A stretch of DNA of 38,422 bases. Origin: a virus. Each line of letters begins with the position of its first letter. Position 1 is the first letter of the stretch. Under the pieces are notes generated by a model that did no database searches, was not told where the DNA came from, and saw nothing but the letters and a program-made list of their open reading frames with translations. The translations under genes were made by a program, and so were the position numbers. The stretch spans positions 1-38,422 of the IMG/VR virus record IMGVR_UViG_3300032268_000817. The stretch is one strand, 5' to 3'. Below are positions 2,392 to 38,421 of this stretch, one piece after another.

Positions 2392-2399
2392 TATTTATA
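2392..2399 (+). promoter_or_regulatory. Late-type motif TATTTATA upstream of portal gene
   Basis: Exact TATTTATA, beginning just after the terminase stop codon and 28 nt before the portal ATG. It belongs to the series of same-orientation octamers before late genes in this window. A promoter role for the gp55-like sigma factor is inferred. Confidence 0.5.
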
Positions 2400-2427
2400 T
2401 TATCGAAGTATTAAGTAAAATTGTATC

Positions 2428-4281
2428 ATGGCAGAACAGAATTTAACAGTTTGGCAACGATTATCCAAAACTTTTGGTCCAAATTCCCTTTTGGGTCAAG
2501 ATTATCCAACTTTCAAGTTTGATAAGAAAGAAATATTACGCACAAAAAGTAGAGAAGAATACGAGAAGGAAAAACTTCAAGCTCAACAATCATTCTATTT
2601 AGCGGGTCAATGGACAAAAGTTGAAAATAATTTATATTCTCAAGCCATCTACTATGAGCCATCAAGATTATCTGCTCAGTATGATTACGAATCAATGGAG
2701 TATACTCCTGAAATTTCTGCCGCTTTAGATATCTACGCTGAAGAGTCAACAACAACAAACGAAGATGGATTTATTCTTCAGATTTATTCTGAATCGAAAA
2801 GAATCAAATCCGTATTAGCTGACTTATTCAATAACGCACTTGATATCAACACTAACCTCCCGATGTGGACAAGAAACACCTGTAAGTATGGTGATAACTT
2901 CATTTACTTGAAGTTAGACCCTGAGAGAGGAATCGTTGGATGTCAACAACTACCAACAATTGAAATTGAAAGACATGAGGTAGGTGCGAGTCAAAAGATT
3001 TCAGTTCAGATTGAAAAGACTGAACCGAACAAAGCCTTAACATTTACTTGGAAGAACAAAAACATGGAATTCCAAACTTGGGAGATTGCTCACTTCAGAT
3101 TATTGGGTGACGATAGAAAGCTTCCTTACGGAACATCTATGTTAGAAAAAGCAAGAAGGATTTGGAAACAATTATTACTTTCTGAAGATGCGATGTTGAT
3201 TTATAGAACATCAAGAGCTCCTGAAAGAAGAGTATTCAAAGTATTCGTCGGAAACATGAATGATGACGATGTTGAAGCATATGTTCAACGTGTTGCCAAT
3301 AAGTTCAAAAGAGAACAAATTGTTGATAGTAAAACAGGAAACGTTGATATGAGGTTTAACCAAATGGCGGTTGACCAAGATTACTTTGTTCCTGTTAGAG
3401 ACCCTGCAGCACCAAGTCCAATTGATACTTTACCTGGTGCTACAAACTTATCAGAGATTGCCGATATTGAATATATCCAAAAGAAATTGTTAACAGCACT
3501 TCGTGTTCCAAAAGCATTCTTAGGATTTGAAGAAGTTGTTGGTGATGGTAAGAATTTATCTCTCCAAGATATTAGATTTGCCAGAACAATTAATAGGATT
3601 CAAAAAAGTATGTTGCAAGAACTAAACAAAATTGCAATTGTCCATTTATTCTTATTAGGTTTTGAAGATGAATTATCAAACTTTACTTTAGGTCTTTCAA
3701 ACCCATCTACACAAGCTGACCTATTAAAAATTGATGTTTGGAAAGAAAAAGTATTATTATACAAAGATTTAGTTTCAGACCCAGGTAATGGTATTCAAGC
3801 AACTTCATCTACATGGGCTAAAAAACATATCTTCGGTTGGTCTGATGAAGAGGTTAAACTTGACTTACAACAACAAAGAATCGAAAGAGCTGTAGGTGAA
3901 GAATTGAAAGCAACTGCAACAGTTATCACCAAGACAGGATTCTTCGATAACATCGACAAGCTTTACGGAACAACAACAGGAACCACAACAACACAAGGTG
4001 CTGAAACAGAAACGGAAAGTCCCCTACCATCATTTGGAGGAGGAGGCGAACCATCTGGACTACCTGAACCAGCAGGAGGAGAATTAGGAGGGGGTGAAGC
4101 TCCACCACCGGCAGAAGCGGGAGGGGGTGAAGCTGAAGTAACACCTGAATCAAGAATGAAGGACTTTAATATTTTAATTGAAAATAACATGATTGAGGGC
4201 GATGAATTCCTCGATTTAGGAAAAGCTAGAGAATCTTTAGGAGAAATTTCGAAAGAATTGGATAAGTTATTAAATTCATAA
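2428..4281 (+). CDS. Portal protein (T4 gp20-like) with low-complexity C-terminal extension
   Basis: The portal forms the dodecameric ring at the head vertex through which DNA passes and on which the prohead is nucleated. The assignment rests on position between terminase and prohead protease, length (617 aa against about 524 in T4), and gp20-like features: TPEISAALDIYAEEST near 91-106, an RAPERRVFKVFVGN segment near 266-279, and the LRVPKAFLGFEE region near 367-378. From about residue 515 the protein has a Thr-rich, then Gly/Pro/Glu-rich linker of roughly 60 residues. It ends in a charged helical tail (about 575-617). T4 gp20 has no such linker that I know of. The linker may tether the tail to the core or to packaged DNA; this is speculative. 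Confidence 0.93.
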   Translation: MAEQNLTVWQRLSKTFGPNSLLGQDYPTFKFDKKEILRTKSREEYEKEKLQAQQSFYLAGQWTKVENNLYSQAIYYEPSRLSAQYDYESMEYTPEISAALDIYAEESTTTNEDGFILQIYSESKRIKSVLADLFNNALDINTNLPMWTRNTCKYGDNFIYLKLDPERGIVGCQQLPTIEIERHEVGASQKISVQIEKTEPNKALTFTWKNKNMEFQTWEIAHFRLLGDDRKLPYGTSMLEKARRIWKQLLLSEDAMLIYRTSRAPERRVFKVFVGNMNDDDVEAYVQRVANKFKREQIVDSKTGNVDMRFNQMAVDQDYFVPVRDPAAPSPIDTLPGATNLSEIADIEYIQKKLLTALRVPKAFLGFEEVVGDGKNLSLQDIRFARTINRIQKSMLQELNKIAIVHLFLLGFEDELSNFTLGLSNPSTQADLLKIDVWKEKVLLYKDLVSDPGNGIQATSSTWAKKHIFGWSDEEVKLDLQQQRIERAVGEELKATATVITKTGFFDNIDKLYGTTTGTTTTQGAETETESPLPSFGGGGEPSGLPEPAGGELGGGEAPPPAEAGGGEAEVTPESRMKDFNILIENNMIEGDEFLDLGKARESLGEISKELDKLLNS

Positions 4282-4289
4282 TATTTATA
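4282..4289 (+). promoter_or_regulatory. Late-type motif TATTTATA
   Basis: Exact octamer overlapping the end of the portal gene and 15 nt before the ATG at 4305, in the sense direction of the gene. Confidence 0.5.
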
Positions 4290-4304
4290 TTCAAATACCA
4301 AAAA

Positions 4305-5003
4305 ATGACTTTCGGACAAGTAAAATCCATTATTGAAAAAAATCTTATTGAATCGTATAGAAACGAGAAAGAATTTAAAAAATCTTTAAGAGAATTTAAG
4401 GAAAATGTTCTCAACAGTAAGTCGTTGTCCAAGGTTTATAACTTGTATGACCAACTATCAACTTCTCAAGGTCTTAGCTCTTCTGATGCGAACGAATATC
4501 TTAATGAAGGTATTAGTCTTATTCAAAGATTATTACCAACAATTAAAATGCCAAAAAGTATATCTGAAAGTAATTCTAATTTATACTCAGATATCGACAC
4601 TTTAGTTTATATAAACAAACTTAATATCCACGAAAGATTACAATCTAGGAAAAACATTATTAAAGTTTTGACCTCAGAAAACAAAATTGTAAAAGAGTCT
4701 ATAAAAATTCCAATTAGCTCGATGGTGAAAATTGCGAATCAAACTTTGGAGAATTATGTTGATACAATGGATGAGCAATCTAAGAAAACTTTTATTGAAA
4801 TTCTAAAATCTGATGGTGAAAATCTGAAAGAAGATTTTTCTGTATTAAAAGAAAAAACTATCGAAAAATTGAATTCAGTTCTTGGTGAGCAAAAAGAAAG
4901 TGATATTATTGAAAAAATAACTGAAACAATTAACAAATTAAAAGGAGAAGAATTCAATCAAATTAACTATTTTAAATTAGTTAATTTAGAAAAGAATTTA
5001 TAA
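4305..5003 (+). CDS. Hypothetical helical protein, possible prohead core component
   Basis: 232 residues, rich in Lys, Glu, Ser and Ile, apparently almost all helical, with no recognised domain. The N-terminus carries an amphipathic helix VKSIIEKNLIE (6-16) that ends in L-I-E. This fits the L/I-x-E cleavage pattern of T4-type prohead proteases and resembles segments in four other proteins here. T4 has small core proteins (gp67, gp68) between portal and protease genes, so a core or internal protein is a reasonable guess from place. The late-type motif 15 nt upstream supports late expression. Its stop overlaps the end of the convergent bS21 gene by six bases. Confidence 0.75.
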   Translation: MTFGQVKSIIEKNLIESYRNEKEFKKSLREFKENVLNSKSLSKVYNLYDQLSTSQGLSSSDANEYLNEGISLIQRLLPTIKMPKSISESNSNLYSDIDTLVYINKLNIHERLQSRKNIIKVLTSENKIVKESIKIPISSMVKIANQTLENYVDTMDEQSKKTFIEILKSDGENLKEDFSVLKEKTIEKLNSVLGEQKESDIIEKITETINKLKGEEFNQINYFKLVNLEKNL

Positions 5004-5186
5004 TTCGTTAACTTTTCTTTGTTTATAAATTGCTTTTAACTTCTGAGCTCTTTTCTCAACAGAGTTTTTTGTGAATTTTTTTCTATTCATCAACTGTTGA
5101 TTCTGTTTGGTCTTGATAACTTTAGACTTCAAAGTCTTAAGAGCTTTCTCAATGTTTTCGTTGTTTTTAATTTCTATAATTAACAT
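4998..5186 (-). CDS. rpsU: Ribosomal protein bS21
   Basis: 62-residue basic protein that matches Bacteroidota bS21 in length and layout. It starts MLIIEIKNNENIEKALKTLK, followed by a Lys-rich middle, then FTKNSVEKRAQKLKAIYKQR, aligning with the family's N-terminal strand, basic helix and the F-x-K/KPS-x-x-KR segment. bS21 binds the 30S platform near the anti-Shine-Dalgarno end of 16S rRNA. It is the ribosomal protein most often reported in phage genomes. It is the only minus-strand gene in the head region and overlaps the preceding convergent gene by six bases. A late-type motif variant (TATTTATT) ends seven bases before its ATG. I see no strong Shine-Dalgarno, unlike what is described for host rpsU mRNA in Flavobacterium. 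Confidence 0.85.
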   Translation of the reverse strand: MLIIEIKNNENIEKALKTLKSKVIKTKQNQQLMNRKKFTKNSVEKRAQKLKAIYKQRKVNEL

Positions 5187-5193
5187 ATTCTGA

Positions 5194-5201
5194 AATAAAT
5201 A
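5194..5201 (-). promoter_or_regulatory. Late-type motif variant TATTTATT upstream of bS21
   Basis: On the minus strand this reads TATTTATT, 7 nt before the bS21 ATG, with one mismatch to the common TATTTATA. Confidence 0.4.
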
Positions 5202-5282
5202 TTAATGTTTTTTGTAATTTTTTGACATTAAGTTTTATATGTCTTATTTTTATTAAAATAAACTATAATAACATGAAATTTA

Positions 5283-5711: not shown

Positions 5712-5739
5712 AATAACAACTAAACTTACTCAATCAGTA

Positions 5740-5747
5740 TATTTATT
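5740..5747 (+). promoter_or_regulatory. Late-type motif variant TATTTATT upstream of protease
   Basis: TATTTATT ending 12 nt before the prohead protease ATG at 5760; one mismatch to TATTTATA. Confidence 0.4.
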
Positions 5748-5759
5748 TCTAAAAGAGTT

Positions 5760-6476
5760 ATGAAGAAATTAAGAATTCTTGAGGCAAATGAATCAGGTCA
5801 TGGGATTTTGATTGAAATGGATGCAGGTTATGTGTCTCCTCGTGAAGATATGAATGCCGCTTTTTTAAAAGAGGCTGTCAAAATGGATTATAAAAATCCT
5901 TTTGAATTTTATGCTGTTCTACAAAAATATGACACTCCAAATAGAAATGGTAGATTCTATCCTGAAAGAATACTCAAGAGAGAGGCTGAAAGATATAAGA
6001 AGATGATTGCTAAAGGTTTATCAACTTCAGAATTAAACCATCCAGAATCTTCTTTAATTGACCTCGATAGAGTTTCGCATATAATAACAGACGTATGGTG
6101 GGATAAGAATATATTGATGGGTAAATTGAAATTACTCACTTCACCAGGTTTCCATGAAAGAGGTATCGTTTCAACAAAAGGTGACCAAGCGGCCAATCTA
6201 ATGAGACAAGGGGTTACTATGGGTGTTTCATCAAGAGGTGTTGGTTCCTTAAAAAAGGTTGGAGAAAGAAATGAGGTTCAAGATGACTTCGAGTTAATTT
6301 GTTTTGACTTAGTATCTTCACCTTCAACACCAGGTGCTTATCTTTTCACAGATGTAAATGAAAGAGAAAAATATGAAGAAAATCTTGAAGAAGAAAAGAA
6401 AGTTTCTCAACCTGAAAAGAATTTAGACAAGTCTATTGATTTGATGAAAAAACTTACCGATTTTTTGGGTAAATAA
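5760..6476 (+). CDS. Prohead core protease (T4 gp21-like, S77 family)
   Basis: This serine protease matures the prohead by cutting the capsid protein and core proteins after L/I-x-E sites. The length of 238 aa is near T4 gp21 (212 aa). Typical features are the FYAVLQKYDTPNRNGRFYP segment (50-68), the probable catalytic His94 in ELNHPES, and the probable catalytic serine in GVSSRG (S157 or S158), followed by a DFELICFDLVSSPSTPGAY block. The C-terminal 40 residues are charged and may be removed on activation, as for gp21; that is by analogy. It lies between the portal and scaffold/capsid genes as in T4, with a late-type motif 12 nt upstream. Confidence 0.94.
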   Translation: MKKLRILEANESGHGILIEMDAGYVSPREDMNAAFLKEAVKMDYKNPFEFYAVLQKYDTPNRNGRFYPERILKREAERYKKMIAKGLSTSELNHPESSLIDLDRVSHIITDVWWDKNILMGKLKLLTSPGFHERGIVSTKGDQAANLMRQGVTMGVSSRGVGSLKKVGERNEVQDDFELICFDLVSSPSTPGAYLFTDVNEREKYEENLEEEKKVSQPEKNLDKSIDLMKKLTDFLGK

Positions 6477-6486
6477 AATTAAAATT

Positions 6487-6696: not shown

Positions 6697-6702
6697 AAAT
6701 CT

Positions 6703-6729: not shown

Positions 6730-6741
6730 ATTTTATTGAAC

Positions 6742-6749
6742 TATTTATA
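6742..6749 (+). promoter_or_regulatory. Late-type motif TATTTATA
   Basis: Exact octamer between the terminator and the ATG at 6764 (14-nt gap). Because a terminator lies just upstream, the next gene needs its own promoter. This makes it one of the better-supported copies. Confidence 0.58.
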
Positions 6750-6763
6750 ATAAACTTTTTAAA

Positions 6764-7084
6764 ATGATTTTTATTATAAATTACAGAGACCAAAGTTCCA
6801 CACTTTTAAGTGCAACTACGTGGTCAGAAGCAACTGCATATGCAGAGGGAACAGGAAAACAAATCGGTTCTATCAATGAACCTGTAAACCCAATATTGGT
6901 TTTAAATTCTCCTCTAACTGACAATTTTTATCAAATTACTTTGAAGAACACAACTACAGGTGCTCTCTCACTCTATTTTGTATTTGAAGAGGATTACCAA
7001 TCTTTGAATACTTGGATTGAGTCCCAAATATCTATGGAGATTTTAAATCTACAAAATATTCAAAGAAATTACGTTTCACTATAG
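6764..7084 (+). CDS. Hypothetical small protein in head operon
   Basis: 106 residues with no recognised family. The sequence looks like a compact alpha/beta fold: strand MIFIINYRDQ, helix WSEATAYAEGTG, then strands FYQITLKNTTT and ALSLYFVFEE, and a final helix. It is flanked by late-type motifs on both sides and lies between the protease and scaffold genes, so late expression and a head-related role are likely but unproven. Confidence 0.7.
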   Translation: MIFIINYRDQSSTLLSATTWSEATAYAEGTGKQIGSINEPVNPILVLNSPLTDNFYQITLKNTTTGALSLYFVFEEDYQSLNTWIESQISMEILNLQNIQRNYVSL

Positions 7085-7114: not shown

Positions 7115-7122
7115 TATTTATA
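7115..7122 (+). promoter_or_regulatory. Late-type motif TATTTATA upstream of scaffold
   Basis: Exact octamer 22 nt before the scaffold ATG at 7145. It is the nearest copy upstream of the major capsid gene, which has none of its own. Confidence 0.52.
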
Positions 7123-7144: not shown

Positions 7145-8770
7145 ATGCAAGAAAATAAAGACGTAGTACAAGAGGCACTAATTCGAATGAAACAAGTCGA
7201 AGATGTAATCGCCGAAAATGCAAAAGGAATACTTGCTTCAACTATGAAGGAAGAAATCAACCAATTAGTAAAAGAATCTCTATCTGAACAAGATGATGAC
7301 GAGGTTGAATTAGATGTAGACATGGACGATGACACTGAAGAAGTGGATATGGACATGGATACTGATAACGAAGACGAAGTCGAAATGGATATGGACTTAG
7401 ACATGACTGACATGGATTCAGAATCTCCTATTGATTTAACAAACGCTTCTGACGAAGAAATTCTAAAAGTTTTCAAAGCTATGGGTGAAGAAGACGGTAT
7501 CATTGTAAAGAAGGATGGCAAAGACATTCATCTTACTGATAACAATTCTGACAACGAATACTTAGTAAAACTTGGTGAATCTATGGAAGAAGAAATGGAC
7601 GAACAAGAAGAAGAAGACGAATACGAAGAAGAAGAAATGGACGAATCATCACATTATGGTGGTAAAAAAGGTGACATTTCTAAATCTCGTAAAGACTACA
7701 TGGAAGAAGACGAAGATGTAGATGCGGTTATTGAAAAGTTATTCTCATCGGATTCAGATGACAGCGAAGGTATGGATGTTGAAGATGAAGATGAAGAGAT
7801 TATGTATGAAATCGAATTTGACGAACAAGACGATGACGACATGGAAAGTGACGACGACATGGATGATGTTGACGAAATGGAAATGGACGAGCAAGAAGAA
7901 GAAATGGACGAGCAAAATTGGGAAGAAAGCTTAGATGAGGCTTACAGTCACAAAAAAGCACCAGGAATTACAGGAAACGGACCTAAGTTCTCTTATAACA
8001 AATCTGCTAAAGGTGGATTTAAAGAAGATAAGAAAGTAGGACCTAAATCTGTAGGAACTGGTAAAGCTAAGTTTGAATACAAGAAAGGCGCGAACATGGA
8101 AGGAAAATCTAAAGTAGTTAAAGCTGAAACGAAAGAAGGTAAATTCGGAGGCAACAAAGGAGACGATTCTCGTTCTAAAAGAGACTACGAACAAAAGTTT
8201 GGTGGCAACAAAGGTGACAAATCTAAAACTCATAGTGGAAAAGATTATGAGAAGACTGAAACTAAAGAAGCTGCAAGAACTTATGGTATGGGTTCTAAAG
8301 AAGGAAGAGGTCTTAGAAAAGGCATCACTAATAACAGAAACTATGTTTATGGTAAAAATGGTGTAAAAGTTGAATCTCTTGAATCAGAAGTTAGTATGTT
8401 GAGAGAAAAGAATGAAGAGTATAGAAAGGCATTAAATGTGTTTAGAGAAAAATTAAATGAAGTAGCAATCTTCAACTCTAATTTAGCATATGCAACTAGA
8501 CTTTTCACTGAACATTCAACAACTAAGAAAGAAAAAATAAATATCCTGAGAAGATTTGACGGAGTAGAAACACTTAAAGAGTCTAAATATCTCTATAAGT
8601 CTATCAAAGACGAATTAGGTCAGGTTGATTCAAAATCAATTAACGAATCAGTTGGAAACAAGATAAACAATACAGTTTCAACTGGTTCATCAACAACATT
8701 GATTGAATCAAAAACTTATGAAAATCCACAATTCTTAAGAATGAAGGATTTGATGACAAAAATTAAATAA
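7145..8770 (+). CDS. Prohead core/scaffold protein (gp22-like by position), highly acidic
   Basis: This is probably the internal scaffold on which the capsid assembles. It is placed between the protease and major capsid genes like T4 gene 22, but at 541 aa is twice as long. It has an N-terminal helical region with INQLVKESLSE (38-48, ending L-S-E), a long Asp/Glu/Met run (about 50-97 and 130-265), a Lys/Gly-rich basic section (about 270-385) with repeated GGNKGD/GGKKGD units, and a C-terminal coiled coil (about 395-500). Opposite charges on successive segments are striking. The L-x-E motif suggests cleavage by the prohead protease. Assignment as scaffold is by context and composition, not clear sequence similarity. 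Confidence 0.82.
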   Translation: MQENKDVVQEALIRMKQVEDVIAENAKGILASTMKEEINQLVKESLSEQDDDEVELDVDMDDDTEEVDMDMDTDNEDEVEMDMDLDMTDMDSESPIDLTNASDEEILKVFKAMGEEDGIIVKKDGKDIHLTDNNSDNEYLVKLGESMEEEMDEQEEEDEYEEEEMDESSHYGGKKGDISKSRKDYMEEDEDVDAVIEKLFSSDSDDSEGMDVEDEDEEIMYEIEFDEQDDDDMESDDDMDDVDEMEMDEQEEEMDEQNWEESLDEAYSHKKAPGITGNGPKFSYNKSAKGGFKEDKKVGPKSVGTGKAKFEYKKGANMEGKSKVVKAETKEGKFGGNKGDDSRSKRDYEQKFGGNKGDKSKTHSGKDYEKTETKEAARTYGMGSKEGRGLRKGITNNRNYVYGKNGVKVESLESEVSMLREKNEEYRKALNVFREKLNEVAIFNSNLAYATRLFTEHSTTKKEKINILRRFDGVETLKESKYLYKSIKDELGQVDSKSINESVGNKINNTVSTGSSTTLIESKTYENPQFLRMKDLMTKIK

Positions 8771-8799: not shown

Positions 8800-10608
8800 A
8801 TGGGAGCATTATTAGAATCAGGTCTTGTTGGTAACATCGGTCTCAAGCACCTTAAAGTTATCAAAGAAGACACAATCGGAAAATGGGACAAATTAGGATT
8901 CTTAGAGGGTCTTAAAGGTCACATGAGAGAGAACGTAGCTCAACTTTACGAAAACCAAGCGTCATACCTTATTAACGAAGCTTCAACAACTTCAGATACA
9001 GGTGCTTTCGAAACTGTGGTTTTCCCTATCGTTAGAAGAGTTTTCTCTAAATTATTAGCAAACGATATCGTATCAGTACAAGCTATGAACTTACCAATCG
9101 GTAAATTGTTCTACTTCGTACCTAACATTCAGAACTATGAAACAGGTGGTGATTACAATTCAAACGAAGGAACTCACTATTCTCCTTATGGAGCACCTAA
9201 TGGACCGTTATCTCCAAACGCTGGATATAACTACAACACTGGTAGAACATTGTATGACAAGTTCTATGAAGGTGAAGAACCAGCATTAGACCCACCAGGT
9301 TTATATGACTATTCTAAAGGTTCATTCTCTGCTGTAACAGGTTCTGCTGTAACTGCACAATGGAATAATGTAACATTAAACCTTGACCCTTACGATTATG
9401 CTGAAGGTAATTACAGAAAAGTATTACTTATCATGTCAGGTTTCGCATCTGATGGTGCTGGTAAATTAATCGGTCCTGATGGTCAACCAATCGACAACGA
9501 ATCATTCTTATCTGATTTGACTATCTACGGTAGTACTGCTGGTACAAACGTAAATACTGCAGGTGGCGGTCCTTACTTATTTAGAGTTGTAACTCAAAGA
9601 TATGGTAAAGGTATTGTTCAATACGGTAATAACAACTCAACATTAGTATTCCCTACATCAAAAACAGGTGGTGGTCAATATGACAACATTTGTGATGTTG
9701 AAGGACAAATCTATCTTGAAGTAGATTTACAAGTTCCTGCATGTATCTCTTGCGGTGGTTCAATCGACGGTTACACAGGTTCAACTTTCTCTTCTACAAC
9801 TGTAATAAACCAAGCGTTTACACCAGTTTATAGAATTTATAAGAACTTAGAATTCGAAGATAAAATTGGTGAGGTGTCATTCGACCTTCAATCAGTAACA
9901 GTTTCTGTAACTGAAAGAAAATTAAGAGCACAATGGTCTCCAGAGATGGCACAAGACGTTGCGGCATTCCACAACATCGATGCTGAAGCTGAATTAACAG
10001 CTTTACTATCTGAGCAAGTTGCGGCTGAAATCGATAGAGAAATCTTAAGAGACCTTAGAAAAGGTGCAGCTTGGAACTTAAGATGGGATTACAACGGTTG
10101 GAAGAGATTAGGTACTAACGCAGTTCCTTACACTCAAAAAGACTGGAACCAAACGCTTATCACAGCAATCAACCAAGTTTCTGCTCAAATCCATAAGTCT
10201 ACTTTAAGAGGTGGTGCTAACTGGATTGTTGTTTCTTCTGAAATCAGTGCAATTTTTGATGATTTGGAATATTTCCACGTATCAAACGCAGCTCCTGAAC
10301 AAGACCAATACAACATGGGTATTGAAAGAGTTGGTACTTTAGCTGGTAGATATCAAGTGTATAGAGACCCTTACTTCCCACCAAACCAAGTGTTATTGGG
10401 ACACAAAGGTACGTCTTTACTTGACACAGGTTATATCTACGCACCATACGTTCCATTACAACTTACTCCTACAATGTACAATCCGTTCAACTTCACTCCA
10501 ATCAAAGGTATCATGACTAGATACGCTAAGAAGATGGTGAACAACAGATTCTACGGTAGAATCACAGTTGATGGCGTAAGAACATTCGACTTAAAAGAAT
10601 TGAGATAA
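8800..10608 (+). CDS. Major capsid protein (T4 gp23-like)
   Basis: 602 residues forming the head shell. The N-terminal third matches gp23-type proteins: a helical propeptide, then FETVVFPIVRRVFSKLLANDIVSVQAM and PIGKLFYFVPN. The C-terminal part has QWSPEMAQDVAAFHNIDAEAEL and the REILRDLRKGA region. There is a clear maturation site LINE/A after Glu60, equivalent to FLTE/A after residue 65 in T4 gp23. The protein is longer than gp23 (521 aa); the extra length seems to lie in the middle (about 110-330), possibly an enlarged insertion domain. The start context is A-rich without Shine-Dalgarno. The gene ends just before a strong terminator. Confidence 0.96.
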   Translation: MGALLESGLVGNIGLKHLKVIKEDTIGKWDKLGFLEGLKGHMRENVAQLYENQASYLINEASTTSDTGAFETVVFPIVRRVFSKLLANDIVSVQAMNLPIGKLFYFVPNIQNYETGGDYNSNEGTHYSPYGAPNGPLSPNAGYNYNTGRTLYDKFYEGEEPALDPPGLYDYSKGSFSAVTGSAVTAQWNNVTLNLDPYDYAEGNYRKVLLIMSGFASDGAGKLIGPDGQPIDNESFLSDLTIYGSTAGTNVNTAGGGPYLFRVVTQRYGKGIVQYGNNNSTLVFPTSKTGGGQYDNICDVEGQIYLEVDLQVPACISCGGSIDGYTGSTFSSTTVINQAFTPVYRIYKNLEFEDKIGEVSFDLQSVTVSVTERKLRAQWSPEMAQDVAAFHNIDAEAELTALLSEQVAAEIDREILRDLRKGAAWNLRWDYNGWKRLGTNAVPYTQKDWNQTLITAINQVSAQIHKSTLRGGANWIVVSSEISAIFDDLEYFHVSNAAPEQDQYNMGIERVGTLAGRYQVYRDPYFPPNQVLLGHKGTSLLDTGYIYAPYVPLQLTPTMYNPFNFTPIKGIMTRYAKKMVNNRFYGRITVDGVRTFDLKELR

Positions 10609-10656: not shown

Positions 10657-10879
10657 ATTTGGATAATCGAGTTGAGTTTAATACACGTAAAGACTTTGAG
10701 ATTATTTCAGACTCTTCTAGAGTGAATAAATTTTTTTGATAACACATGTTGATTGCCAATCCAATCATATAAACAGATTGTTCTTCATTAAGTCCATCAA
10801 TAAGATTTGATATGTCGGTTGGAGAAAAGTATGAAATTGTTTCAAATAATTCTCCAATTGGTTGTTTTTTGTCTTCCAT
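10655..10879 (-). CDS. Hypothetical small acidic protein
   Basis: 74 residues and no family recognised. It appears all-helical, with ELFETISYFSPTDISNLIDGLNEEQ and a Leu-rich C-terminus. It is convergent with the capsid gene and divergent from the Cys-motif gene. A candidate host-type promoter precedes it (boxes at 10928-10931 and 10903-10910). This suggests expression independent of the late genes, though the evidence is short-motif only. Confidence 0.65.
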   Translation of the reverse strand: MEDKKQPIGELFETISYFSPTDISNLIDGLNEEQSVYMIGLAINMCYQKNLFTLEESEIISKSLRVLNSTRLSK

Positions 10880-10894
10880 AATAAAATGTGTTGA

Positions 10895-10902
10895 TATTTA
10901 TA
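10895..10902 (+). promoter_or_regulatory. Late-type motif TATTTATA
   Basis: Exact octamer 11 nt before the ATG at 10914. It abuts the candidate minus-strand host-type -7 box at 10903-10910. It also helps decide the start, since an earlier in-frame ATG at 10812 lies upstream of it. Confidence 0.52.
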
Positions 10903-10931
10903 CAAAGGTAATCATGTTAAAAAGAAAACAA
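10903..10931 (-). promoter_or_regulatory. Candidate Bacteroidota-type promoter
   Basis: On the minus strand TTTG (10931-10928) is followed after 17 nt by TACCTTTG (10910-10903), matching the TAnnTTTG -7 box of the Bacteroidota primary sigma. The spacer is somewhat short. The ATG of the gene at 10879 is 23 nt downstream of the box. Confidence 0.3.
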
Positions 10932-11630
10932 ATAAAAGAAGCCACAGGCTCTGGTAGTTCAGGAAAATTCAAAGTTCCTATTGTGTTAGCACCACAAGAT
11001 TGGGAGGAGGACCAATTAGGTCCGTTTGTTGAGCCTGTATATCATTACACGAATGCTGAGTTAGCATATGAAGAGGCTGATGGGGATTTTAAAGAGAGTC
11101 CTGCTAAAAGAGCCGCAATTGAAAGAAGAACAAAAAAATTATCTAAGATTGATGATTACCTAAAAAAGTTCTATACAGGTCAAAATGATGAGGACGGTAG
11201 TAATATCGGTCAGATTGAAAATCCTGAAGAAATTATAAAACAAGCCGTGGGTCCTTTAAAAGAAGAGTTTCTTAATGAAGATTTAGCGGTATGGTTTGGA
11301 ACTAAAAATAAACCGAAAGGAAGTAAACAACCTAAGGGTCCTTGGGTTAATATTTGTAGAAAAGAAGATGGTAAACATCCTCCGTGTGGTAGACCTGAGG
11401 CTAAAGATAAAGGATATCCAAAATGTAGAGCTGTTGGTGTTGCATCCAAAATGAGTGCATCAGAAAAAAGGTCTGCATGTCAACAAAAGAGAAAAGCAGA
11501 AAAATCTGAACCAAAAACAGGAACAGGTAACGCACCTACGATGACAAGTTATAAACCGAGAAACGAGGGAATTAAGAACTTGATTAGAAAAGTATTGAGA
11601 GAAAACACTAATCCAACTTCTTCAAAATAG
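10914..11630 (+). CDS. Cys-motif protein with DUF5872-like region
   Basis: 238 residues from the ATG at 10914. The frame is open back to 10812, but that start would run through the divergent gene and the promoter region. The C-terminal half (about 122-205) has WFGTKNKPKGSKQPKG, then WVNICRK, PPCGRPEA, YPKCRAV and KMSASEKRSAC. This Cys/Gly/Pro-rich pattern resembles DUF5872-type proteins of large viruses and phages, by recollection and not by search. Four cysteines could bind a metal. The C-terminus has the helix IKNLIRKVLRE (220-230) ending in L-R-E, a possible prohead protease site shared with other proteins here. It may be a head internal protein. Confidence 0.78.
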   Translation: MLKRKQIKEATGSGSSGKFKVPIVLAPQDWEEDQLGPFVEPVYHYTNAELAYEEADGDFKESPAKRAAIERRTKKLSKIDDYLKKFYTGQNDEDGSNIGQIENPEEIIKQAVGPLKEEFLNEDLAVWFGTKNKPKGSKQPKGPWVNICRKEDGKHPPCGRPEAKDKGYPKCRAVGVASKMSASEKRSACQQKRKAEKSEPKTGTGNAPTMTSYKPRNEGIKNLIRKVLRENTNPTSSK

Positions 11631-12018
11631 TTTGGAGAGAATGTTGAATATTATTTTTAATTTCATCTTCTAAAAGTTGTCTCTGACCTTCTAAAACTTT
11701 ATCAAAACTTTCAATAATTTGTTTAAAACCATTATTATCTGATAAATAAACTGAGTAACTATAAACATGGTTTATCAGGTTTATTGTATGATTTTCGATA
11801 ACAATAAACATATTTTTGTTTTCATTTTTGATAAACCTTTTGTTGGAAATTGGCGCAAACGTCAGTTTGGAATCGGGGTCAGAAATTAATTTCTTACAAA
11901 TCTCAACAGTTATTTTTTCCTCTTCAGGTATTGGGAACGAAGGGTCAAATCTTTCTTTTAAAGTCAGATATATTTTAAACAATAGACGAGGGATATATCC
12001 CACAACTTTATTTTCCAT
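11608..12018 (-). CDS. Hypothetical protein
   Basis: 136 residues, no family recognised. Predicted mixed fold with an N-terminal helix (VGYIPRLLFKIYLTLKERF), a central strand pair (KNMFIVIENHTINLIN) and a long C-terminal helix. The 3' end overlaps the convergent Cys-motif gene by 23 bases. It has the best host-like promoter of the window directly upstream, with the -7 box four bases from the ATG. This implies a nearly leaderless transcript and possibly early expression. Confidence 0.7.
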   Translation of the reverse strand: MENKVVGYIPRLLFKIYLTLKERFDPSFPIPEEEKITVEICKKLISDPDSKLTFAPISNKRFIKNENKNMFIVIENHTINLINHVYSYSVYLSDNNGFKQIIESFDKVLEGQRQLLEDEIKNNIQHSLQTILKKLD

Positions 12019-12022: not shown

Positions 12023-12053
12023 CAAATATAAGGAACTATTTAAAAATTAACAA
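12023..12053 (-). promoter_or_regulatory. Bacteroidota-type promoter TTG-N20-TATATTTG
   Basis: On the minus strand TTG (12053-12051), a 20-nt spacer, then TATATTTG (12030-12023), a full match to the TAnnTTTG -7 box at consensus spacing. Only 4 nt separate the box from the ATG at 12018. Confidence 0.48.
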
Positions 12054-12511
12054 TAGGCACCTGAGCAATGTTTTTTACCATCTAATCCAGGCATACTTCC
12101 TTTACACACTTGAACCGCATATCCGTTCGCATATGCGCTTGGATAAACTTTAAATTTTGATTTTGCGGCCGATTTTCCTCTTGTACATAGTTTCGTTCCA
12201 GTTTTTTTCTTTCCTTCTTGAATATCTTCATAATCTACATATGATTCTTGTTTCTTTGTTTCATTCATCATGAAATCAAAAACTTGGTCCATACTAGTTT
12301 TGGCTTCACTAACATGGTCGTCAGCCCAATCGTGACCGTCTTGGATTATACCATCAACTACGTTAGGGTCTAATTTTAACAACATCTCACATTGTCTTTT
12401 AATTTGTTCTAAGTTACTAAAGAACATGTAATTTGTCGTTTGTTCTTCTTTCAATACTTTTTTTACTAAGTTTGAAATGTCCTTTTCTGTTAGTCTAATT
12501 ACCTTACTCAT
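12047..12511 (-). CDS. Hypothetical protein with C-terminal PSAYANG/Cys motif
   Basis: 154 residues. The N-terminus has IRLTEKDISNLVKKVLKE (5-22), an amphipathic helix ending in L-K-E, one of five such segments in the window and a candidate prohead protease site. The C-terminal 55 residues are basic and Cys-bearing: TKLCTRGKSAAKSKF, YPSAYANGYAVQVCKG, KHCSGAYC. Short proteins with a PSAYAN motif recur in T4-like and other large phages; their function is unknown to me. Its start overlaps the stop of the upstream gene (ATGA), so translation is coupled to the preceding tail gene. Confidence 0.75.
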   Translation of the reverse strand: MSKVIRLTEKDISNLVKKVLKEEQTTNYMFFSNLEQIKRQCEMLLKLDPNVVDGIIQDGHDWADDHVSEAKTSMDQVFDFMMNETKKQESYVDYEDIQEGKKKTGTKLCTRGKSAAKSKFKVYPSAYANGYAVQVCKGSMPGLDGKKHCSGAYC

Positions 12512-14020: not shown

Positions 14021-14028
14021 AATAAATA
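14021..14028 (-). promoter_or_regulatory. Late-type motif variant TATTTATT
   Basis: Minus-strand TATTTATT, 10 nt before the ATG at 14010. It sits in the 18-base gap after the hub gene. Confidence 0.42.
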
Positions 14029-18280: not shown

Positions 18281-18288
18281 TATAAATA
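18281..18288 (-). promoter_or_regulatory. Late-type motif TATTTATA between sigma and tail operon
   Basis: Exact octamer on the minus strand in the 16-base gap between the gp55-like gene and the ATG at 18277. It is 3 nt from that ATG and five bases past the sigma stop codon. Confidence 0.55.
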
Positions 18289-32499: not shown

Positions 32500-32967
32500 T
32501 TATAATTTTGAAATTATTTCGTTTATTCTTTTAAGGCTTTCAGTAACCGCAGCATCATATTTTTGCATTGTCGATGCGTGTTTTTGAGAAGGTCTAACAT
32601 TGGTGAAATCTTTCTTCTCATGTGGTTTAATAAACTGATTGGTCATACCAGTTTCTTTTTTATTATCTTTTGTAACCTTTAAAGTTTCTCTCATTTTCCT
32701 TAATTCGTTGTTCACCCAATTTTTCATTTGAACTCCACCATTAAGAACGAATGAACCTTCTTTATGATTACCTTTAAAATTATCAAAAAAGTTTTTGATT
32801 CTTTTCAGTTGTTTATAACTGATGAATTTTTTTCCTTGAAGTTCTTGGTTTCTTTTGTAACCTTCACTATCCTTATCGACATCACCAACCTTACTTAGAG
32901 AAACCCTCATGTGTTCTCTCATGTTTCTTGGAAATTCAATTTCTTTATCGTATAAACTTTTATTCAC
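32500..32967 (-). CDS. Basic hypothetical protein
   Basis: 155 residues, strongly basic, helical. Segments such as GKKFISYKQLKRIKNFFDNF and KNWVNNELRKMRETLKVTK look like nucleic-acid or core-binding helices. The C-terminus SLKRINEIISKL includes an I-N-E. Overlaps the upstream gene by eight bases. Possible internal head protein; no family recognised. Confidence 0.68.
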   Translation of the reverse strand: MNKSLYDKEIEFPRNMREHMRVSLSKVGDVDKDSEGYKRNQELQGKKFISYKQLKRIKNFFDNFKGNHKEGSFVLNGGVQMKNWVNNELRKMRETLKVTKDNKKETGMTNQFIKPHEKKDFTNVRPSQKHASTMQKYDAAVTESLKRINEIISKL

Positions 32968-33778
32968 TTGATAACATTTTAATTAAATCTTTTTTAGAAA
33001 AACCTTGTTTCTCCATTTGTTTTATTAAAGATTTCATATTCTTTTTTAAAAATGAAGGAATTTCTTCATCATTTTTCTTTTTAGTGACTTCAGAGTTGTT
33101 TGAATTTTTCTTACCCATCAAAATATCTTCAACTACCTTAATCATTTTTTGTTTTTGAATTTCAGATAAAGTTGCTCTTGTTACAAAATTCTTGTCTTTT
33201 TTGAATTTTGAATTTTCATCTTTTTTTCCTGATGGGTCTTTACCTTGTTCTAAAGTTCTTTCCCAAGCATCTGGTTCAGCCATTTTTAATTCGTCTCTAA
33301 AATATTCAAAAGTTTCTTGACCATTCATATCTTTTGTTTCCTCAAATCCAAAAGCACCCGACATATCTTCTTCTTTAACTTCGTCAACAGATTCACCGTA
33401 ATAAGTTCTGTAACCACGAGAAATTGGGTCGTTTGTAATTCTTGCTGCGGCAACTGTTTGGTCCATAGTTTTTTTCGGATGTAATTTTGGGTCTAATATT
33501 GGAATTTTAGAATTTGAAAATGCTCCGTCTATGTTAACCAATTCTTCTAACTCACCTGTAATTTCTTTCGATGATTTTTTCTTTTTTGATTTGGCACATT
33601 TATTCAAATATTTTTTGATTACCTCAACTTTGTCTTTTGGTATTTTCATCATTACATCTTTTTTTCTTGCTTCAGTTAAAGTTTCTTCTACAGAATAGTA
33701 TAATGAATAATCATTTCCCTTATCTCTAAGGAAAAAATAATATGGCGATGAATAAAATTCTTTGTCTATAGTAATCAT
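32960..33778 (-). CDS. Lys-rich hypothetical protein
   Basis: 272 residues, very rich in Lys, Glu and Asp. An N-terminal part (MITIDKEFYSSPYYFFLRDK) followed by a Lys run near 60-70 (CAKSKKKKSSKE), a region with AAARITNDPISRGYRTYYGES, and a helical C-terminus. No family recognised. First gene of the minus-strand late-type operon; the TATTTATA motif lies 16 nt before its ATG. Confidence 0.7.
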   Translation of the reverse strand: MITIDKEFYSSPYYFFLRDKGNDYSLYYSVEETLTEARKKDVMMKIPKDKVEVIKKYLNKCAKSKKKKSSKEITGELEELVNIDGAFSNSKIPILDPKLHPKKTMDQTVAAARITNDPISRGYRTYYGESVDEVKEEDMSGAFGFEETKDMNGQETFEYFRDELKMAEPDAWERTLEQGKDPSGKKDENSKFKKDKNFVTRATLSEIQKQKMIKVVEDILMGKKNSNNSEVTKKKNDEEIPSFLKKNMKSLIKQMEKQGFSKKDLIKMLSSE

Positions 33779-33794: not shown

Positions 33795-33802
33795 TATAAA
33801 TA
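33795..33802 (-). promoter_or_regulatory. Late-type motif TATTTATA (minus strand)
   Basis: Exact octamer on the minus strand, 16 nt before the ATG at 33778. It lies back to back with a plus-strand copy at 33816 in the 53-base divergent gap. Confidence 0.57.
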
Positions 33803-33815: not shown

Positions 33816-33823
33816 TATTTATC
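33816..33823 (+). promoter_or_regulatory. Late-type motif variant TATTTATC
   Basis: TATTTATC, 8 nt before the fibre gene ATG at 33832. Seven of eight bases match. Confidence 0.47.
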
Positions 33824-33831
33824 ATTAGTTT

Positions 33832-36741
33832 ATGTCATATCAGAATATTAATCAATACAATTATAGAAGGTGGGCGTTAATTCCATTCAATGAAATCACC
33901 GACATTTGCCTTGCATCAGATGAAAAAGACTATGACCAAGAGGTAGTTTTTTCTCCTTTGTTGATTGGTGAAAATGATGGGAATCGTATGCCGTTTAAGT
34001 TTGATATCAATCATTCGGCAACAACTTTATGTCAATCGGCAACATGTTCTTTTGATAATCAAACAATTGTTTCTGAAAACTATTGGAACCCAACTGATAC
34101 TGACCCGAACTTTTGTCCTATAATCACTGACTTATGTGATGTTGGTTTAACAGGTATAGATAATGGACTTGTTAAAAAAATGTCTGGTGAAACAATTCAA
34201 ATTAATACGGGTTTATATTCAAGTATCTCAGACAAATATAGTAGATACAAATATGATAGGAGAATGAAAATGCACCCTATCACAGGTTTTACCACAACCG
34301 CAAATAGACTTTGGAATGATAACTCATATTCATATGACTTGTCTTATTCAAATGAAAATAATAGTGTAGGATGGTTTGCAAAATTAAATGGTGGATTCTT
34401 TCAAGGATTTTATAAAATAGCCGGATATGATTACCAAGTTTTTCCTGAAAGAGTTAATTTGGGATGGACAAGTGAATTCTTGTTAAGATACAGATGGACT
34501 GGTGATACTTCTGTTGGTTTAAATAACAGATACCCTGATAATAAAGGAACATTCTTTTTCATGGGTGCGAGAGCTGAAAATAAATTCTACCACTATGCTG
34601 AAGGAAGTCCACCTCAAGATACAGGATATACAAGAGTAACATCAGGTTTGACCTGTATGCATACTTGTGGTTGCACAAGTAGTGCTAACACAGCCTCGAC
34701 TTGTTATTCTGTTTACCAATTATCAGGAATTACAAATACAACTTGTGGATGTGGATGTCCATGTAGTTGCACAACATCAGCTCAATTTCCTGAGAAAGAC
34801 CCATTGTATGATGGCGTTTCGAACGGATTATCTCTGAGGTTGAGTGGTGATAGTGGTAACCCGAGATTATGTATTAAGACATATAGGATTACAGGTGGTT
34901 GCGAATCTACAGGAACTTGTTTGACAGGATTGACATATGTCACTGGAACTTCAGTAACTGAATGGTGCTCTACGAGAGGTATCTTTGATGACTGTAGAAA
35001 TACAACATATATCAATGTTGAACACTGGGTTCAAATCGATGCCGTGTTCCAACGTAATGAATATTTTTCAGGATGTGACCTTTGGGATAAAGGTGGTCTT
35101 GGATTAATTGTGTCGGATGAATATACCGCTACAACAGCCAATAACAGTGTAAGTTTAATTAAACCTCCAATAACCCACGCAGATGTTTATGACCCTGAAA
35201 CAACTGAGGTGGTTACATTCACAGATATTTGGATGGAGGAGAAAAATTACAGATTGGGTAAGTTGAAACTATTCGTGAATGGAAGACTGTTCATGGTTGT
35301 TGAAAACTTCGAAGAAATTATTCCACACTTAGTTAACGTTGAAAAGGAAAAACAAATTGGTGTTGGTTATAACATTTCTTTAGGTGGGGGAACACAAGGT
35401 CTCAAGGATAACTTAACATTTTCAGGAACTTGTCCCGCAACGGTTGATGAAATAGTTTATCAACAAGACCCTGAATGTTTAACAACACATGACTTAGATA
35501 ATACAATTTACTCAGGATTAACAACTCATATCAGACTTGAGGAAATTTTCGGTGGAAGTATGATAGGAGATATCAGTGCATTTAGAATGTATACTGAGCC
35601 CCTCAACGCTAGCCAAATCGCACATAACTTCAGAGTCTTAAAGGCAAGATATGATTTGTTAGACCCTAATTGTCCTAACTGTAGAATCATTGTTCCTGAT
35701 AATGATTTGACATACTTAGCATTCCCTTGCAACGATTTATATTATGAGTCATACGATTGTCCAACACCTACACCAACAGTAACTCCAACGGTAACTCCAA
35801 CCATTACACTTACACCAACAGTTAGTCCTACCTCTACGGTAACACCAACAGTTAGTCCTACCTCTACGGTAACACCTACTATTACTTTAACATCATCAAT
35901 AACTCCGACAGTTACTGAAACACCAACTAATACTCCAACTCCGAGTATAACTCAGACACAGACTTCAACAATTACACCAACAGAAACACCAACAGAAACA
36001 CCAACGACCACACCTACGGAAACTCCAACTCAAACACCAACCATAACTCCTACTGTTACTACAACAGAAACTATAACACCAACGCCAACTCAAACAGAGA
36101 CTCCCACTGAAACCCCAACGAACACACCTACTTTAACTCAAACGCCAACTCCAACTAACGCAAGATTTTCGTTCTTATGTTGCACTGGCACAACGGCTGT
36201 TGAAGCTTGCTCTTGTTCTTCAGAAACTGTAACAATATGGGGTAATTATTCTAATTTTGATGAGAATGATTTATTTTATAATAACGCAACAGGTGAAGTT
36301 ACTATTGATATGTCAGGATTTTATGTTTTTGGTTCAATTAGCATAGAATTGGATTCCAATGGTATTATTGTTGGGTCATACAATTTATGTCCAACGGTTA
36401 CTCCAACAATCACTCCAACAATATCATTAACACCTACTAATACGCCAACACCAGGACTTAGTCCATCACCGACTCCTACTGTTACTGAAACCCCAACTAA
36501 TACACCAACAGAGACTCCAACAATGACACCTACCGAAACTCCAACAAATACTCCTACAAATACTCCAACGAATACAGAAACACCAACAGTAACACCTACC
36601 AATACAGAAACGCCAACAAATACGCCAACAAATACACCAACTCCTACGGTAACTCCGTCTGAACCATACTTCTTATTATTTGAAGATGATTCAGTTGCTA
36701 CCGCAGAAAATAACGATAATATTGAAATAGATATAACATAA
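33832..36741 (+). CDS. Large fibre/adhesin protein with LamG-like region and Thr-Pro tracts
   Basis: 969 residues, probably a tail fibre or head-surface adhesin. N-terminal and central regions (1 to about 640) are beta-rich; residues about 465-620 ([17 protein letters not shown], then [25 protein letters not shown]) fit a concanavalin/LamG-like lectin fold. Residues about 274-320 contain nine cysteines in two clusters. Two mucin-like TPT tracts follow (644-776 and 854-943), separated by a small beta domain (777-853) that ends in LCP; each tract begins right after a Cys-Pro. The last 26 residues are acidic. Transcribed from the divergent gap with a late-type motif. Host target unknown. Confidence 0.83.
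35761..36159 (+). repeat. Thr-Pro repeat tract 1
   Basis: Degenerate repeat coding for T-P-T-x units (residues 644-776 of the fibre). It includes a perfect 30-bp tandem duplication, 35812-35841 and 35842-35871, a sign of recent slippage or recombination. Confidence 0.85.
36391..36660 (+). repeat. Thr-Pro repeat tract 2
   Basis: Second T-P-T-x repeat tract (residues 854-943), rich in TPTNTPT and TPTETPT units, after the small beta domain. Confidence 0.85.
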
Positions 36742-36754
36742 AAAATAGATTAAA

Positions 36755-37348
36755 ATGGCAAATACAAAAATCAGTGCATTACCACTATACACAGGAGACA
36801 CCACGGGTGTTTACCTTGTCATGGATAATAGTGGTCTAACCGAAACCTTCAAAGTTTTAAAAGAAACATTAATAGGTTCTTCAGGAACAAGTGGTTCATC
36901 AGGAACTAGCGGAAGCTCAGGTTCTTCAGGAACATCAGGTTCTTCGGGTAGTTCTGGTACAAGTGGAATTTCAGGTTTGTCTGGTACAACAGGTAGTTGG
37001 ACGGTGACTCCAGGGACTAATAACTACAGTTTTACAGTTGCTATTAATAACACATATAACTTATGGGTTCTTGGAAACATACCAAGTGGTATAATAGTTT
37101 ATAATGCTACCGTAAGCGTAACTAATAATAATGTACCTGTAATTGGTGTTCAGTATGCATGGAATTATACTGGAGCGGGTAGTCCAATATTGTTAACAAG
37201 TATACCTGCACAGATTATAGGAACCGCAGGTGCAATATCCACCGCTTCACCTGCTGTAGGTACATCAACAAATACATTTGTATTTGGTATTGAAAACAAT
37301 ACAGGTTCAAATGTTACGGTTAATTATGGATATTTGAAAATAAGTTAA
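36755..37348 (+). CDS. Collagen-like fibre protein
   Basis: 197 residues. N-terminus ANTKISALPLYTGDTTGVYLVMDNSG (2-27) is a frequent start of phage fibre and appendage proteins in this group. Then thirteen Gly-X-Y triplets (41-80), mostly GSS and GTS, likely a trimeric collagen-like stalk, and a beta-rich C-terminal head (about 83-197, FTVAINNTYNLWVLGNIPSG and onward). Gly-Ser-Ser triplets without proline are unusual but known in phages. 13 bases after the big fibre gene, so co-transcribed. Confidence 0.85.
   Translation: MANTKISALPLYTGDTTGVYLVMDNSGLTETFKVLKETLIGSSGTSGSSGTSGSSGSSGTSGSSGSSGTSGISGLSGTTGSWTVTPGTNNYSFTVAINNTYNLWVLGNIPSGIIVYNATVSVTNNNVPVIGVQYAWNYTGAGSPILLTSIPAQIIGTAGAISTASPAVGTSTNTFVFGIENNTGSNVTVNYGYLKIS
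36875..36994 (+). repeat. Gly-X-Y collagen-like coding repeat
   Basis: 9-bp-period repeat encoding thirteen G-S/T-S-type triplets (residues 41-80), prone to length change by slippage. Confidence 0.85.
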
Positions 37349-37349
37349 A

Positions 37350-37910
37350 ATGTATACAACAGACTGCAATTATTTCAACATAACAAACTACAATAATGTC
37401 CAAGAAGGATATTATAGGTGGACAGGGTGCACAGGTATCGTAAGTGTTTCACCAATCAATACGTTGGACTCAACATACCTTTGTGCTAAAAATGTTACAG
37501 TCGAACAATATGGTGCACCCCTTACAATTGTTTTTGCGGGATTATGTCCATCGAATACACCAACACCAACAATGACACCGACAATCACTCCAACACCTGT
37601 CACACAAACTCCAACACCTACACCAACGATTACACCAACAATTACCCAAACATTTATCCCGAGTTACAACTTATGGTCTTCAGGATATTTTGAAGATGCT
37701 TGTAATTTAGTTAACATACCTCAACCAGCTAACGTTACAATCTATAGCACAATTCCTTTCACTTCATTAGTTGAAGGTGATTTTGTTTATGGAAACCCTG
37801 CTCAAACAATTCCACCTGATTCACCAGCAAATATTATATCAGATGGTGCTGTTTGGATTCAAATAAACATATTTAATGGTCAGGTCCTTGACGTTGGTAT
37901 TTGTAATTAA
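37350..37910 (+). CDS. Small modular fibre protein with Thr-Pro linker
   Basis: 186 residues. N-terminal beta module (1-66) ending in GLCP, a TPT linker (67-101, coding 37548-37652), and a C-terminal beta module (about 104-186) ending in VGICN. Same build as the C-terminal half of the 969-aa protein: module, Cys-Pro, TPT tract, module. It starts one base after the collagen-like gene. Likely virion surface. Confidence 0.8.
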   Translation: MYTTDCNYFNITNYNNVQEGYYRWTGCTGIVSVSPINTLDSTYLCAKNVTVEQYGAPLTIVFAGLCPSNTPTPTMTPTITPTPVTQTPTPTPTITPTITQTFIPSYNLWSSGYFEDACNLVNIPQPANVTIYSTIPFTSLVEGDFVYGNPAQTIPPDSPANIISDGAVWIQINIFNGQVLDVGICN

Positions 37911-37925
37911 AACAAAAGATTTAAG

Positions 37926-37933
37926 TATTTATA
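37926..37933 (+). promoter_or_regulatory. Late-type motif TATTTATA, 3 nt from start codon
   Basis: Exact octamer with only GAC between it and the ATG at 37937, the same spacing as the copy at 18281-18288. Confidence 0.52.
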
Positions 37934-37936
37934 GAC

Positions 37937-38380
37937 ATGGCAGTATGTGGTGTAACAATTTTTAGTGAAAATTTAAGTGGTCTTACGGCAAACGTAACGT
38001 TTTACCCATGCTCAGGAGGAACCATATCTTTAGGTGACCAAGTGTTCCCATTCAACTATGTTGATGATTATTATTTTGGTCAGTTTGATTGTTATGTTCC
38101 CCTATATGATTACAACTACATATTAGAAATTCCTTGTCCATCACCAACATACGAATTAATTCCTACAGGTGAATTATTATATGACATAATTCCTTTGGAT
38201 AATTTGTCTGCATTAGACATACCTAATGGTGAATTATTGTATGAAACAATTCCTTTGGATAATTTGTCGGCATTAGACATACCTAATGGTGAATTATTGT
38301 ATGAAACAATTCCTTTGGATAATTTGTCGGCATTAGACATACCTAATGGTGATTTATTATACGCCATAATTCAAAATTAA
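37937..38380 (+). CDS. Small beta-module protein with 20-residue tandem repeats
   Basis: 147 residues. Beta module with four cysteines (1-67) ending in IPCP, the same boundary as the TPT-linked modules. Instead of a TPT tract it is followed by a 20-residue repeat, units at 75-94, 95-114, 115-134 and a partial at 135-147 (core IPNGELLYETIPLDNLSALD-like). Probably a surface or fibre protein. Whether the repeat is a stalk or a binding array is not clear. Confidence 0.78.
   Translation: MAVCGVTIFSENLSGLTANVTFYPCSGGTISLGDQVFPFNYVDDYYFGQFDCYVPLYDYNYILEIPCPSPTYELIPTGELLYDIIPLDNLSALDIPNGELLYETIPLDNLSALDIPNGELLYETIPLDNLSALDIPNGDLLYAIIQN
38161..38372 (+). repeat. 60-bp tandem repeat
   Basis: Units 38161-38220, 38221-38280, 38281-38340 and a partial 38341-38372. 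The second and third units are identical over 60 bp; the first and last differ at several bases. Confidence 0.95.
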
Positions 38381-38413
38381 ATTTCAATAAATAAAAATTT
38401 CAATAAATCATAA

Positions 38414-38421
38414 TATTTATA
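38414..38421 (+). promoter_or_regulatory. Late-type motif TATTTATA at window end
   Basis: Exact octamer in the last bases of the window, after the final gene. Predicts a plus-strand gene starting just beyond the window. Confidence 0.45.

Follow-up and report, generated by a model that had tools for sequence, protein, structure and literature searches.

The octamer TATTTATA probably serves as the late promoter box of a clade of T4-like phages, in which it would be read by a phage-encoded sigma factor of the gp55 type and, where it lies closest to the start codon, would give rise to leaderless mRNAs. We analysed IMG/VR virus record IMGVR_UViG_3300032268_000817, a fragment of a T4-like phage whose whole 38,422-base length is referred to here as the window. 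Sequence comparison establishes the placement of the box, its strand, its conservation, a contrast between gene classes, the homology of the sigma factor and a bimodal spacing to the start codon; that the genes behind the box are expressed late in time we infer. The clade that carries the box is large, mostly uncultured and has Bacteroidota-type hosts, and the box would provide a rule for locating the late genes of aquatic Bacteroidota-type phages, a major group.

In the proposed mechanism TATTTATA, in extended form RTATTTATW (R = A or G, W = A or T), would by itself make up the core promoter of this clade's late genes, those for virion and lysis. A sigma factor encoded at 18294-19043 on the - strand would bind host RNA polymerase and read the box as a -10-type element, with no -33 element, and transcripts would start 3-5 nucleotides (nt) downstream of it. 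A box 3-5 nt before ATG would yield a leaderless or nearly leaderless mRNA, and one at least 11 nt away an mRNA with roughly 7 nt or more of leader. Non-virion genes, the early ones among them, would use a promoter of the host sigma-A type, TTG-N19/20-TAnnTTTG or, in Flavobacterium phage immuto, TTG-N20-TAnnTTTA.

Placement, strand and conservation of the box

The signal lies in placement and strand, not in copy number. Exact TATTTATA occurs 9 times in the whole window against 3.6 expected, a mild excess only (4 of 100 shuffles reach 9), and the 7-mer TATTTAT shows no excess at all (18 against 17.6). Within 50 nt before ATG at the 22 heads of transcription units, TATTTATA is found at 7 (0.32 expected) and TATTTAT at 11 (0.94 expected), values reached in none of 2,000 dinucleotide shuffles; the opposite orientation occurs twice in the same intervals. 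The head placement and strand bias that the earlier note had read by eye thus hold against shuffled sequence.

Related IMG/VR contigs were recovered with the open reading frame (ORF) 18294-19043 and with gp17, hundreds by each. Among 160 related loci, which are not independent of one another, 344 of 635 exact TATTTATA copies are intergenic, in sense orientation and upstream of a start, nearly all within 30 nt, where intergenic DNA makes up 6% of the sequence. TATTTAT precedes 57-63% of same-strand genes that have a gap of 10-44 nt and at most 1% of those with a gap below 10 nt; once near-duplicates are removed the contrast persists, at 30-40% against about 1%. TATTTATA is present between gp17 and gp20 in all 52 window-like and all 55 immuto-like contigs, with varying flanking bases. 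Moreover, TATTTATA recurs in clades that share this type of sigma factor and are only about 25% identical in terminase.

The box also emerges with no motif preset. In three large relatives, TATTTAT ranks first of 6,341 7-mers both in heads against operon genes (z 12.9) and by strand (z 7.7), and TATTTATA ranks first of 9,958 8-mers in the head comparison. Sense to antisense counts of TATTTATA from a single script are 7:1 in the window, 18:3 in immuto and 6:0 in phage Mel-JY01. As controls, the same script gives 12:5 for TATAAATA in T4 and 5:0 for ATAAATA in cyanophage Syn33; phage C48C1, whose gp55 is of the T4 type, has TATAAATA at 2:0. Counts for TATAAATA are 1:7 in the window and 3:18 in immuto, so the T4 word is not the coding-strand word of these phages.

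The box is best understood in the register of the T4 late promoter, where TAT-AA-ATA becomes TAT-TT-ATA: A-10 and A-9 are replaced by T, and A-12 and A-8 are kept. The earlier note had described it as the reverse complement of the T4 promoter, with the opposite sequence on the coding strand. The description is literally true, but only because the TAT and ATA flanks mirror each other; the framing as an opposite sequence has no support. Since A-12 and A-8 are retained and -10/-9 changed, the box is a two-base variant of the T4 element and not an inverted one.

The candidate sigma factor and a second promoter class

ORF 18294-19043(-) encodes a gp55-type sigma factor of 249 residues, the candidate reader of the box, with sigma region 2 and, at its C terminus, a helical domain alignable to sigma region 4. 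At default cut-offs, the single sequence gave no sigma match in PHROG or Pfam, and profiles were needed. With a profile of 27 relatives, immuto, LR756508 and Mel-JY01 each gave a full-length homologue (E 1e-12 to 1e-14), and T4 gp55 came next among all ORFs searched (E 6e-4). T4 gp55 was also the top match in a profile search of the PDB (E 0.18). Alignment by hhalign to eight T4-type gp55 proteins covered 112 columns of sigma region 2 (Prob 92, E 5e-7), indicating homology. The PHROG 'late sigma transcription factor' and Pfam Sigma70_r2 were the most frequent matches among 37 members (23 and 21, respectively), each individually weak. Foldseek searches with a predicted model returned almost only sigma factors, and because these alignments run through both sigma 2 and sigma 4 we call the C-terminal domain, provisionally, sigma-4-like. 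The family is unannotated in every record found; the immuto homologue (78174-78872, YP_010114565), for instance, is annotated as hypothetical. A likely function can hence be assigned to a conserved protein with more than 450 close IMG/VR relatives, that of reading TATTTATA.

T4 gp55 flips A-12 (through Y97), A-9 (N13 and H95) and A-8 (T99) of its promoter (PMC7892883). In the profile alignment Y97 corresponds to window Y108, which is invariant in 38 members. H95 corresponds to Y106 (Y or F in the family), T99 to G110 (G or Q) and N13 to V29 (V, I, K, Q, S or T). The putative correspondence between changed bases and changed pocket residues is thus consistent, and would offer, for studying how gp55 reads DNA, a naturally occurring swap in which AA has become TT at -10/-9 and the pocket residues have altered.

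The system resembles the T4 late promoter (TATAAATA, with gp55, gp33 and gp45) in having an eight-base, AT-only box of the -10 type that lacks a -35 element and precedes virion genes on either strand, in a phage-encoded gp55-type sigma, and in keeping A-12, A-8 and the tyrosine of the -12 pocket. It differs in having TT in place of AA at -10/-9. The sigma is also longer than T4 gp55, with the sigma-4-like C-terminal domain and without the C-terminal clamp-binding motif: it ends in FKKLYIGIQTRMKNQ, and by eye no end like the L-x-F-Y of most T4-type sequences is seen. The T4-type clamp family PF02916 is detected in T4, the positive control, and not in immuto, Mel-JY01, LR756508, Rhodothermus phage RM378 or five relatives, a result that fragmentary genomes or a diverged clamp may explain; searches of the relatives for bacterial clamps likewise found nothing. 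Finally, boxes lie 14-28 nt from ATG in T4, whereas about half of those here lie at 3-5 nt. Late-box variants identified in silico in KVP40, 44RR and S-PM2 are highly similar to that of T4, and Aeh1 has a/gC at -13/-12 (PMC2988020). These are, like the present box, small clade-specific changes of one element, but as described there none has TT at -10/-9. The literature searched contained no earlier description of TATTTATA as a phage promoter, with many subscription journals outside its coverage, and the stretches of the immuto record that were read carry no promoter features.

A second class of promoter is present in the same genomes. In immuto, which was cultured on Flavobacterium, TTG-N20-TAnnTTTA has an almost invariant spacer (31 sites at 20 nt, 2 antisense), the pattern of Bacteroidota sigma-A. 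With heads that carry both elements scored as box heads, and virion regions set by hand from the annotation of the record, the TATTTAT box is found at 20 of 40 virion-region heads against 10 of 76 others (p 3.5e-5), and the host-type promoter at none of the 40 against 28 of the 76 (p 1.4e-6). Around gp55 in immuto-like contigs host-type promoters dominate the motif analysis, because gp55 there lies among non-virion genes, and the terminase region served in its place. Large genomes of the window clade have a corresponding class, TTG-N19/20-TAnnTTTG, with 49 sense and 14 antisense sites at those two spacers, which supports a Bacteroidota-type host. In these genomes box and host-type promoter coincide at 4 heads where 9.4 are expected (p 0.016).

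The genes behind each class differ accordingly in their matches. In one relative (G001), matches to portal, tail sheath, gp21, tail fibres and endolysins come from genes that follow a box. Genes with a host-type promoter match, among others, peptidases, tRNA nucleotidyltransferase and protease PHROGs, ATP-dependent and head-maturation types included, but give no match to tail, portal or sheath. The box resembles the Bacteroidota sigma-A promoter (TTTG/TTG at -33, TAnnTTTG at -7) in lying near the start. That promoter, however, has TTTG or TTTA with a TTG 19-20 nt upstream and marks non-virion genes in immuto, a description that the TATTTATA class does not fit. Indeed, upstream of the box a -33 TTG shows no spacing peak and the columns are near background, as for T4-type promoters with no conserved -35. 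The likeness to TAnnTTTG pointed out in the earlier note is hence not a common element: the two are separate classes, and box heads lack the -33 part. Its proposal of a late-promoter class for a gp55-like factor gains support, since the box is strand- and head-specific, rare in packed operons and, in a cultured relative, enriched before genes of the virion, and since a diverged sigma of the gp55 type is encoded in the window. That the class is late-only cannot be derived from the window; what the relatives bear out is enrichment at virion genes, which is not an exclusive rule.

A broader proposal, more tentative and in our view just short of an even chance, is that a T4-like lineage rebuilt late transcription for a Bacteroidota-type polymerase, with a two-domain gp55-type sigma that reads TATTTATA, no route through the gp45 clamp and about half of its late units leaderless, in hosts where such mRNAs are rare.

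Observations in other phages also touch on the box and its reader. Phage Mel-JY01, whose host is given as Microcystis, has both the sigma of this clade and the TATTTATA box, which leaves the choice between a clade that infects cyanobacteria as well and a host label that should be verified. Relatives of the Mel-JY01 gp55 were not found in IMG/VR by its patterns. In RM378, TATTTAA is sense-biased before genes (11:3), which may point to a related late box in a phage further removed.

Spacing to the start codon and rival readings

The distance from the 8-mer to ATG is bimodal. After de-duplication 76 genes lie at 3-5 nt, 45 at 11-16 nt and only 4 at 6-10 nt. In the short class, 66 of 79 genes have a pyrimidine directly before ATG. 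The figures are 159 of 328 for operon-internal starts (p 7e-9) and 30 of 53 for the longer class (short against longer, p 0.001), the bias expected of transcripts that begin on the A of ATG. A hairpin followed by a T-run lies within 60 nt upstream of 18 of 81 short-spaced heads, 2 of 328 operon genes and 1 of 152 reversed controls. At several short-spaced heads the T-run abuts TATTTATA-N3/4-ATG, which leaves 11-16 nt before ATG, too little for a further promoter. In the family of window gene 17912-18277, 49 of 51 distinct orthologues have TATTTATN-N3..5-ATG, with the N terminus MPRPQRKEI conserved from residue 2. The sigma-A box TAnnTTTG of F. psychrophilum has been mapped at -12 to -5 (PMC9723704), so TAnnTTTG-N4-ATG puts the transcript start on the A, and the host-type class of these phages peaks at exactly 4 nt to ATG (11 of 41). 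For about half of the box genes, the mRNA therefore probably starts at the AUG itself, on this reading of the spacing. Leaderless mRNAs amount to 5.5% in F. psychrophilum (PMC9723704), and about 3.7% of B. theta mRNAs have leaders shorter than 10 nt (PMC7366714); with leaderless or very short leaders at about 4-6% in mapped Bacteroidota, so high a fraction in these phages would be unusual. If the prediction is true, leaderless translation could be studied with a phage and host in culture, in a phylum that does not initiate by Shine-Dalgarno sequences.

This rarity in Bacteroidota (PMC9723704, PMC7366714) is one reason to consider that TATTTATA is a late promoter whose short-spaced copies are not leaderless, the transcript starting further upstream or translation beginning at a downstream codon; another is the in-frame ATG that follows within 30 codons in some of the short-spaced genes. 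We regard this as unlikely, though it is the alternative we take most seriously, given the N terminus conserved from residue 2 in 49 of 51 orthologues, the pyrimidine-ATG junction, the trough at 6-10 nt and the terminators that leave 11-16 nt before ATG. Its closeness to ATG, nearly fixed at 3-5 nt in about half of cases, could also mark the motif as a signal for translation initiation, recruiting ribosomes in hosts without Shine-Dalgarno sequences. Operon-internal starts need translation equally, yet the box is nearly absent there; two spacing modes, terminators directly upstream, divergent back-to-back boxes and the anti-association with host-type promoters all argue for a promoter, and the known host promoter box has the same 4-nt peak. 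A translation signal is in consequence highly improbable. Somewhat less so, but still improbable, is that the box is read by host sigma-A, as a -33-less variant of TAnnTTTG, or by an alternative host sigma with a phage activator, the gp55-like protein doing something else. The shared TA at the first two places and the coexistence of host-type promoters in the same genomes speak for it. The missing TTTG and -33 element, the split between virion and other genes, and the recurrence of TATTTATA in clades of about 25% terminase identity that have this sigma type in common speak against it. The whole-window counts are close to what an AT-rich word would reach by chance in AT-rich intergenic DNA, a reading with practically no probability left since it is refuted by the shuffle and strand controls and by the placement and conservation statistics.

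Several points weigh against a late promoter read by the phage sigma. De-duplication of the related loci, by shared words or N termini, removes their dependence only partially. LR756508 has this type of sigma and neither TATTTATA nor TATAAATA before its genes, and is thereby an exception. The sigma assignment is one of distant profile similarity, with single Pfam and PHROG matches below the usual cut-offs; a second, deeper profile retrieved neither T4 gp55 nor any other sigma above noise from the PDB, and the best Foldseek E value is 0.016 for a model of mean pLDDT 73. In immuto the box also stands at those 10 of 76 heads outside virion regions, and in the window neither gp17 (631) nor the major capsid gene (8800) has its own.

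Box copies and neighbouring genes in the window

All 13 copies listed in the earlier note, 9 on the + strand and 4 on the - strand, lie where it placed them. Beginning with those on the + strand, exact TATTTATA at 2392-2399 stands 28 nt before ATG of the portal gene gp20 (2428-4281), and that at 4282-4289 is 15 nt before ORF 4305-5003. The variant TATTTATT, with T as eighth base, lies at 5740-5747, 12 nt before gp21 (5760-6476). The TATTTATA box at 6742-6749, 14 nt before ORF 6764-7084, is itself preceded by an AGTGGTC..GACCACT hairpin and T-run, read directly in the sequence. Another at 7115-7122 is 22 nt before ORF 7145-8770. The copy at 10895-10902 falls inside the longest ORF, 10812-11630, 11 nt before an in-frame ATG at 10914 that is the likely start codon. 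At 37926-37933 TATTTATA is 3 nt before ATG of ORF 37937-38380, for which a leaderless mRNA is predicted, and the last copy (38414-38421) is at the window end, its gene lying beyond.

On the - strand, TATTTATT (eighth base T) is found at 5194-5201, 7 nt before ORF 4998-5186(-), and at 14021-14028, 10 nt before ORF 12508-14010(-). TATTTATA at 18281-18288 is 3 nt before ORF 17912-18277(-), again with a predicted leaderless mRNA. The TATTTATA box at 33795-33802(-), 16 nt before ORF 32960-33778(-), and the TATTTATC box at 33816-33823(+), with C as eighth base and 8 nt before the fibre-like, PT-rich ORF 33832-36741, form a back-to-back pair for divergent genes, 13 nt apart, that recurs in large relatives. 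Because the - strand member heads the run that contains the glycan and nucleotide genes, the window does not show the absence of the motif before that operon that had been claimed. Five more 7-mer copies, at 8536, 11741, 24664 and 38386 (-) and 25832 (+), are in coding DNA or have no gene following. The only clear host-type promoter of the window, TTG-N20-TATATTTG at 12023-12053(-), stands 4 nt before ATG of ORF 11608-12018(-) and supports a Bacteroidota-type host and a leaderless transcript.

PHROG and Pfam matches identify terminase gp17 (631-2391), portal gp20, prohead protease gp21 (PHROG_207/PF03420) and major capsid protein gp23 (8800-10608). The capsid protein has 602 residues, with the Gp23 match mainly at residues 341-587 and extra sequence in the N-terminal half. 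ORF 7145-8770 is acidic and scaffold-like by position only. The surface genes at 33832-38380 are rich in repeats: PT/TET in 33832-36741 and 37350-37910, GTSGSSG in 36755-37348, and the 20-residue repeat NGELLYETIPLDNLSALDIP in 37937-38380.

Many short-spaced genes (related loci L258-L293; 12047-12511(-) in the window) start with a segment like MKYIITESQLxxLI or MSKVIRLTEKDI, found in 27% of them against 8% of operon genes; it could be a head-targeting or cleavable N terminus. In immuto, a long conserved promoter-leader, GTTG-N-TATATTTAGGTATCAATAATTAAAACA, is common to non-virion genes at about 60-76 kb, suggesting a common leader that serves translation too.

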